Shown piece after piece: positions 25,858-56,764 of a stretch of DNA of 56,764 nucleotides. Below the pieces are notes generated by a model that made no database searches, was not told the origin of the DNA, and saw nothing but the letters and a program-made list of their open reading frames with translations. Each line of letters opens with the position of its first letter. The stretch's first letter is position 1. A program made the position numbers and the translations under genes. Source of the DNA: Lentisphaeria bacterium (GTDB lineage Bacteria; Verrucomicrobiota; Lentisphaeria; Oligosphaerales; Oligosphaeraceae); NCBI GenBank assembly GCA_024405215.1, contig JAKSPB010000021.1, forward strand, positions 1 to 56,764, written 5' to 3'.

Positions 25858-25970
25858 TTCTTGTATCGTTTTTGTATCGTCGGCGTTGTGCGAAATTCCG
25901 GGCTTGGGAAAACAAAGCTATCTCGGACAATCTGTCACGATACGAAAACGATTCAAGAACGATTCGAAAA
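25858..25970. repeat. R4: facing arrays of contiguous 11-bp repeats
   Basis: Direct units TTCTTGTATCG (25858-25868) and TTTTTGTATCG (25869-25879) face inverted units CGATACGAAAA (25938-25948), CGATTCAAGAA (25949-25959) and CGATTCGAAAA (25960-25970). All are contiguous 11-mers. The spacer between arrays is 58 bp. The same architecture recurs at 56492-56635. Confidence 0.75.
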
Positions 25971-55504: not shown

Positions 55505-55876
55505 ATGGAAAAAATCGTCTGGGTTTTGAAATCCGACTATGCCAATGAAGTGCGCTTTCAATCCTATCGCAAGAAGCATGAGCGGGAGTTGATTTCCTGC
55601 CTGGCGAACCTTGACAATCTACTGCATGCCTTGAATATGGGCCTTTCCCTGCAGGAAGCCCTTGGGCTAGGTTTCTTTCGTTCCGAAGGGGAAAACATCT
55701 ACCGCATTGGGCAAAGTGGTGTTGCGCACGCCAAAGAAACGCGACTTTATGTCTATGCCCGAATTACTGGTCCAGACATTCAAATTTTAACCATCGGTGA
55801 CAAGAAATCGCAACAACGCGATATTGATTGGTGCAAAAGGCTAGTTCGACGGTTTGAGGGGGAAAATGATTTTTAA
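55505..55876 (+). CDS. HigB/RelE-like toxin (phage Gp49-type)
   Basis: 123 residues, first gene of a pair whose stop overlaps the start of the antitoxin by one base (TAATG). The pattern (LGLGFFRSEGENIYRIGQSGVAHAKETRLYVYARITG, ending in ILTIGDKKSQQRDI) resembles the HigB/Gp49 toxin fold, which cuts mRNA at the ribosome; toxin-first order is typical of higBA. The local DNA is clearly more AT-rich than the rest, suggesting acquisition by transfer. Confidence 0.72.
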   Translation: MEKIVWVLKSDYANEVRFQSYRKKHERELISCLANLDNLLHALNMGLSLQEALGLGFFRSEGENIYRIGQSGVAHAKETRLYVYARITGPDIQILTIGDKKSQQRDIDWCKRLVRRFEGENDF

Positions 55877-56451
55877 TGGTTACGGTAACTGACATGAAAA
55901 GCAAGACATTTCATTCTGCTGGTGAGTTCATAGCCAAGCTTTGTGACGAACCACAATTGGCTGATAAGGTTTCCCAAGAGGTCCAAAAGAAAGAATTGAT
56001 GTCTCGTTTGGCTTGTGTTCGCGTGAAGAAGGGACTCAGTCAGCGAAAGGTTGCTGAAATCATGCAAACCAGTGTCAGTTCAATTTCTCGATTGGAGGAT
56101 ATGCGTGATGCGGATGTGAAACTAGGTGAGTTATATGCTTATGCTCATGCAATGAATCTTGATGTCTCGCTAGCCGTGGAAGACATGGAACTTCCTGTGG
56201 CTTTGCGCATCAAGCATTGCGTAGGACATGTAGAGGCGCTTCTCCAGCAGTTGACGGAATTGGCAAAAACTTGCGGAGATGACAAGGCCATTGTTGATCA
56301 TATCATTCGTTTCCGCGGCGAAGTGCTTTATAACTTCTTGCTCAAATACCTTTCCACGGGAGAGAATCTTTCCGAGGATATTTCCGTGCTCCCTCAAACT
56401 GCGGATAAAAAGCTTGACAGGAAAAACACGGAAATAAGCATAACAAATTGA
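55876..56451 (+). CDS. XRE-family antitoxin (HigA-like), extended
   Basis: 191 residues. An XRE helix-turn-helix lies at ~42-100 (LACVRVKKGLSQRKVAEIMQTSVSSISRLEDMRDADVKLGELYAYA). The N-terminal ~40 residues probably contact the toxin. A C-terminal extension of about 80 residues (ELPVALRIKHCVGHVEALLQ...) is longer than in most HigA antitoxins (~95-130). Coupled to the toxin by a TAATG junction. The R4 array begins ~40 bp downstream. Confidence 0.78.
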   Translation: MVTVTDMKSKTFHSAGEFIAKLCDEPQLADKVSQEVQKKELMSRLACVRVKKGLSQRKVAEIMQTSVSSISRLEDMRDADVKLGELYAYAHAMNLDVSLAVEDMELPVALRIKHCVGHVEALLQQLTELAKTCGDDKAIVDHIIRFRGEVLYNFLLKYLSTGENLSEDISVLPQTADKKLDRKNTEISITN

Positions 56452-56764
56452 AAATCAATTCTGTTTTAGCTAGTGTGTGTGGTTTATTGAGTTTTTGTAT
56501 AATCTTTGAATAGTTGCCATCGTTTTTGTATAGTTCCCTATAGTTTTTGTATCGTGATAGATAGGGTGGGATGGTTTTCCCAGGGCGGGATTTCCCCAAG
56601 GGGAGAACTATCCAAGAACTATCCAAAAACTATCACAGCCGTCCCATAATTTTGAAAATTGAGAAAAAAACTGATGAAATTGAACTCAAGGCAGCTTGAA
56701 TCTGCAAGACCCCCTTTTTGTGTGCAGGCTGTGTTAAGGCGGGACTGCCATTTTCTGTTGAACA
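56452..56764. other. Gene-free AT-rich stretch with R4 arrays at window end
   Basis: Beyond the R4 arrays (56492-56635), the last ~130 bp show no gene or structure that can be supported. Confidence 0.55.
56492..56635. repeat. R4: facing arrays of 11-bp repeats, second locus
   Basis: Direct, contiguous units: TTTTTGTATAA (56492), TCTTTGAATAG (56503), a 9-mer TTGCCATCG (56514), TTTTTGTATAG (56523), a 10-mer TTCCCTATAG (56534), TTTTTGTATCG (56544-56554). After a 53-bp spacer come inverted units CTATCCAAGAA (56608-56618) and CTATCCAAAAA (56619-56629). The inner and outer TGATAG/CTATCA hexamers also pair. Confidence 0.75.

Follow-up and report, generated by a model that had tools for sequence, protein, structure and literature searches.

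The described systems that lie closest to the repeat reported here are dispersed bacterial repeats and short tandem arrays. The BrickBuilt element of Porphyromonas gingivalis is a minisatellite-MITE (PMC4596501) of ~19 copies per genome, always intergenic and species-restricted, in which 23-bp bricks in one orientation are placed between a leader and a tail, with IS-like terminal inverted repeats. The REP/BIME/REPIN repeats (GTAG and CGTC families) are described (PMC3733652, PMC3116915) as dispersed, often species-specific and arranged in inverted pairs, favoring convergent or unidirectional gene gaps downstream of coding regions; the REP unit is a 20–40 bp palindrome with a GTAG/CGTC tag. Arrays of the TAACTGA heptamer (PMC4679880) occur in Beggiatoaceae, cyanobacteria and Bacteroidetes; they are direct, mostly intergenic, patchy in phylogenetic distribution and, in one species, located mostly just upstream of start codons.

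The family considered here, R4, was recognized in a stretch of 56,764 nt (the whole of the DNA analyzed, hereafter the window). Its unit is a non-palindromic 11-mer with the consensus TTTNTGKATAG, arranged in tandem with an 11-bp period, and the facing array of such units near the end of the window is real. In this array, the left arm (+ strand) has units 1 and 2 (TTTTTGTATAA, TCTTTGAATAG) at 56492–56513, unit 3, an exact copy of the consensus TTTTTGTATAG, at 56523–56533, and unit 4 (TTTTTGTATCG) at 56544–56554. A 53-bp spacer (56555–56607), which contains TGATAGATAGGG and the core GGATTTCCCCAAGGGGA, separates it from the right arm (− strand, 56608–56629), whose units TTCTTGGATAG and TTTTTGGATAG start at 56608 and 56619. 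The first R4 locus of the window is weaker, with a left arm of two + units (25858–25879; starts 25858 and 25869), a 58-bp spacer (25880–25937) and a right arm of three − units with 2–3 mismatches (25938–25970; starts 25938, 25949 and 25960). At ≤1 mismatch, TTTTTGTATAG has seven matches in the window, compared with 1.5 expected and a maximum of 5 in 100 shuffles, and all seven fall in these two loci. The sequence-only reading had counted six direct and two inverted units at 56492–56635. The facing layout, + units then − units, and the spacers of 53 and 58 bp are borne out at both loci, but only four of the direct units are clear (≤2 mismatches from the consensus), the fifth position (56533) requiring four mismatches. 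The two inverted units are present in the window, although they are not the whole arm, which is cut by a mobile element and has two more 11-bp units on another contig.

The apparent shortness of the inverted arm is thus due to the insertion of a mobile element that has 9-bp target duplications. The left end of this dispersed element (CACAGCCGTCCCATAA; element at 56634–56764, + strand) directly follows the target duplication AAAAACTAT (56625–56633) in the right arm, and the element runs off the contig, so that this copy accounts for the break in the assembly. The nine bases that precede the element in the window, AAAAACTAT, are also the nine bases that follow the same element end on contig C47, and the window contig (C14) and C47 are therefore very probably neighbors, as judged from these matching ends. 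When the flanks are joined across the element, they give an unbroken right arm, CTATCCAAGAACTATCCAAAAACTATCCAAAAACTATTTGAAAACTATCC, in 11-bp phase, with the two further units in phase on C47, and R4 at this locus appears to be older than the insertion. The next gene on C47 (DUF3313-like) runs against higA, so the window locus is convergent too. Genome-wide, CACAGCCGTCCCATAA has 25 matches at ≤1 mismatch. Three copies with both ends carry exact 9-bp target duplications (TTTTGTTTT, TTCCCTGAA, ATCTACAAT), and no exact duplication was found at the other paired ends. The element is ~0.2–0.45 kb long, with ends CACAGCCGTCCCATAA/TTATGGGACGGCTGTG and REP-like GC hairpins in its interior; besides the window copy, examples lie at C8:47212–47665, C8:23548–23971, C56:23345–23602 and C47:22281 of the same genome, and a 454-bp copy has no obvious transposase. 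A Y1 (RAYT-like) transposase frame at C1:94731–95325 (L109) lies amid the same REP-like hairpins, ~270 bp from an end of the mobile element, and a link between RAYT and this 9-bp-duplication family is possible.

Searches of the entire genome (2.98 Mb in 82 unordered contigs, among which no SSU (16S) rRNA was found) gave 19 + 37 matches with a 17-mer at two mismatches (3 in the reversed control) and 95 matches with GATAGTTTNTGTATAG (6 in the control). R4 comprises ~27 loci on more than 20 contigs. The locus list, like the element edges, was set by eye; it has 28 clusters, a few of which are singletons and one of which is the C47 part of the window locus; the weaker locus at 25858 came from a separate search and stands outside it. 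The loci were found with the unit search itself, which misses strongly decayed copies. All 16 loci that show both strands have + units followed by − units, with the units pointing inward. The listing of facing-array loci that the sequence-only reading had proposed, run here on the genome itself, supports the chromosome-wide occurrence that it had raised. Contigs C23, C64 and C79 start inside arrays, and C12 and C29 finish inside them, so the true arrays exceed their assembled length; several contigs end in R4 arrays or in a mobile element within one, which helps to explain the poor assembly. Many contigs of this genome also begin inside other tandem repeats (starts of C3, C16, C17, C18, C21, C31 and C35), with units that include GTTCAT, AACAACT, GTCCGACAG, CGGACGGGT, CTGT and others, some of them apparently coding. 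At C16:1773–1982 (L172), a 29-bp tandem repeat is followed by a hairpin and then by arrays of the nonamer TTTTGTGTA, between convergent genes; the nonamer is also present in a second genome of the genus (G001).

The spacers carry the evidence for copying. The window spacer is identical at 17 of 17 positions to that at C12:110487, with which it shares GGATTTCCCCAAGGGGA, and it has words in common with C23 (12/12) and C43 (13/13); the spacers at C23:1899 and C29:32882 match over the full 53 bp as reverse complements. Such sharing among R4 loci is far beyond that of shuffles, and within this genome the core is found only at five R4 loci, always beside R4 arms. Because cores are common to loci in both orientations, R4 has been copied around the genome together with its core. 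The earlier view that the two window loci are not a simple duplication holds for that pair, but the core of the window locus is common to other loci of the genome. In its dispersed non-coding copies (~27 loci) with a common internal sequence, R4 resembles a MITE. By eye, the outer edges of the listed loci have no fixed end in common, and neither a target duplication for R4 itself nor a mobilizing enzyme was identified. Empty sites were sought in G001, where the flanking genes are kept at some loci and the neighbors differ; no clean site was found, since at these loci the relatives have diverged too much for an insertion to be seen.

Genes were called with a simple, heuristic codon-usage caller that misses genes of unusual composition such as higBA, and several of the counts are drawn from parts of genomes. 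The 22 R4 loci with both neighbors comprise 16 convergent, five tandem and one divergent setting, compared with 36 convergent pairs among the 339 adjacent gene pairs of a 457-kb part of this genome (binomial p ~1e-11). Like REPs, R4 thus lies downstream of genes, mostly convergent or unidirectional ones. Stop codons within 60 bp of R4 are TAG in 26 of 35 cases, versus 143 of 351 elsewhere (Fisher p 2e-4), and the gene's TAG is often itself part of an ATAG box of the array (e.g., AATAG followed by GATAGGATAG, or GGATAG followed by TTTGTGTATAG). After an R4-adjoining stop, all three frames are closed within a median of 53.5 nt; at other gene ends the figure is 200 nt, where the scan stopped. As its sequence shows, the unit in reverse (CTATACAAAAA) is free of stops in every frame. 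At some loci (C34, C23:18485), hairpins with T-runs that resemble intrinsic terminators were seen by eye between the stop codon and R4. The neighbors are ordinary chromosomal genes, which encode a DnaB-type helicase, a DNA topoisomerase, a KH-domain protein, and apolipoprotein N-acyltransferase-like and MacB-like proteins. At the window locus they are a HigB/RelE-like toxin candidate (55505–55876, + strand; TIGR02683 E 0.018, below cut-off; no Pfam match) and an HTH antitoxin-like protein (55876–56451, + strand; PF01381 E 4e-6, over cut-off), the stop codon of which is 40 bp upstream of R4. Among the neighbors examined, a toxin-antitoxin-like pair adjoins only this locus, and HigBA is an incidental neighbor.

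Exact KATAGTTTNTGTATAG occurs 52 times in this genome and 0 times in 47 other genomes of the order, and within the order this search places R4 in this genome alone. The sequence-only reading had named two observations that would speak against it, namely that only two loci exist and that neither is found in close relatives; the absence from relatives is what we find, whereas the restriction to two loci does not hold. Single-copy matches in three genomes of the family (G009, G012, G018) are isolated and have no second arm, and viral contigs contain short arrays only, in AT-rich contigs, with no facing arm in the stretch read. In Prevotellamassilia timonensis An873, doublets of TTTGTGTATAG form the ends of a 1–1.8 kb non-coding composite repeat, and an ancestry in common with R4 is therefore unsupported. 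The An873 repeats (L050, L057, L060, L063, L065), which have 22-bp tandem repeats inside and inverted ends built from TTTGTGTATAG/TGTAGGG units, resemble BrickBuilt in plan.

We favor, with moderate confidence, the explanation that R4 is a dispersed, non-coding, genome-private inverted-array repeat that persists at gene 3′ ends without need of a dedicated function. A GC-richer core is flanked on both sides by inward tandem 11-mers, and copies, core included, have spread around the chromosome in both orientations. The arms would then lengthen or shorten unit by unit through slippage or unequal exchange, as suggested by their homogeneity and by the contigs that break inside them. From either flanking gene, an arm reads TAG once per 11 bp, a spacing that shifts the frame with each unit and so provides stops in all three frames within a few units; R4 can thus abut or replace a gene end without giving it a long read-through tail, and the gene's own TAG often serves as the first TAG of the array. 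The stop density is observed, and from it we infer the selective reason for persistence at gene ends. The facing layout may persist because each of the two outer edges has to face the 3′ end of a gene, and convergent gene ends may be the least harmful place because each outer edge gives the entering gene stops in all frames. Against such passive persistence, the AT richness of the sequence could make the 3′ end stop-dense as a side effect, and the five tandem loci (of 22) and the one divergent locus need no stop on both sides.

The one-turn (11-bp) period and the strict facing polarity would also suit putative protein sites that form a polar roadblock or bidirectional transcription insulator, in which inward sites halt polymerase from each side. 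The enrichment at convergent genes would fit as well, as would the independent variation of the arms around a conserved ATAG box. However, we think it unlikely that R4 works in this way: only 2 of 22 convergent pairs of the sampled genome have an intergenic array, so that approximately nine in ten do without one, terminator-like T-run hairpins already precede R4 at some loci, and no candidate gene for the protein was found. Because R4 is absent in the 47 relatives, a new protein, or a new specificity of an existing one, would be required.

Related genomes carry stop-bearing repeats of their own: compared with the TAG-containing 11-mer described here, G001 has TTAATGC with TAA, and G003 has AATTAGG in a kept orientation. 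G001 also has AATTCTC heptamers and CCTAGG nonamers. With spacers of any length counted, 18 of its 32 convergent spacers contain arrays, compared with 40 of the 215 tandem and 4 of the 33 divergent ones. Its TTAATGC arrays are in the gene sense in 15 of 18 cases (again in spacers of any length), and in 9 of the 15 arrays beside a stop, the first TAA is that of the gene. In G003, 9 of 10 AATTAGG arrays run in the sense that carries TAG, but TAG is not enriched at the adjoining stops; G008 has CCGATCGGA-type nonamers. Several gene ends of G001 that are orthologous to R4-flanking ones also carry such arrays, but this overlap is not significant by itself, because half of its convergent spacers carry arrays anyway. 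As loci L126–L165 illustrate, G001 abounds in intergenic tandem arrays with units of 7, 9, 13 and 14 bp. A heptamer array often begins at the TAA of the gene, and a C-rich, terminator-like hairpin with a T-run comes after it. These genomes suggest that different species of one bacterial family place different stop-bearing tandem repeats at gene ends. The broader claim, that each species of the family keeps its own such repeat in gene sense, anchored on many stop codons, with the sequence turning over rapidly and position and orientation kept as an all-frame stop or 3′-end insulator, seems doubtful to us.

It is distinctly unlikely that R4 is an RNA element in which pairing of the two arms within the 3′ untranslated region would protect or terminate the mRNA, along the lines proposed for REP/BIME. 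R4 does lie at gene 3′ ends, and on either strand its predicted fold is more stable than those of shuffles (z −2.5 and −3.5). Nevertheless, arms from the same element are no more complementary than swapped arms (−416 versus a mean of −403 kcal/mol; 32% of permutations as good), so a hairpin kept by selection for matching arms is unsupported although single elements fold well. There is no U-run after the hairpin at the window locus, and Rfam gave no match for R4.

A REPIN or MITE that is mobilized in trans by one of the genome's transposases, whether a REP-associated Y1 enzyme or another, would account for the inverted layout and for cores common to loci in both orientations; the 3′-end location is that of REPs (PMC3733652), and the genome has two Y1 transposase matches (L109, L110). 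We nonetheless hold such mobilization to be quite improbable. R4 was not found in the 5.5–6 kb regions around either Y1 gene, for which reason an association with Y1/RAYT transposases was rejected; the R4 unit lacks the GTAG/CGTC-tagged palindrome of 20–40 bp, neither fixed ends nor a target duplication were seen, and the 9-bp-duplication mobile element belongs to a different family. Least probable by far is a HigBA-linked region for partition or replication that derives from a plasmid or other element. The AT-rich, iteron-like look and the toxin-antitoxin-like pair next door had suggested it, and the distribution of R4 largely refutes it: iterons would be expected at few loci linked to par/rep genes or the origin, whereas R4 is private to one species of its order and dispersed over ~27 loci beside unrelated, ordinary chromosomal genes, with one locus adjoining such a pair among the neighbors examined.

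With the explanation of a dispersed repeat that persists at gene ends, the facing array becomes part of a family that can be counted and that follows a rule (units pointing inward, flanking genes convergent, the TAG stop belonging to the array), and the question raised is that of passive tolerance versus selection for stop-dense, insulated 3′ ends. Compared with the known systems, R4 is like BrickBuilt in having short tandem units in a dispersed, species-restricted repeat, and differs in that these are 11-mers in two facing arms, with no fixed ends found. It shares with REP/BIME/REPIN the dispersed inverted layout at gene 3′ ends, although its 11-mer units are non-palindromic and follow one another head to tail. 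With the TAACTGA arrays it has in common short tandem units with stop codons, and contigs that break inside arrays, but those arrays are without an inverted pair around a common core. The cyanobacterial STRR arrays, which are mostly intergenic and built of short tandem units, are likewise comparable, and R4 has the tandem units (in the ~7–11 bp range), intergenic position and lineage specificity of short tandem arrays. R4 is a variant akin to REP/BIME, BrickBuilt and the heptamer arrays.
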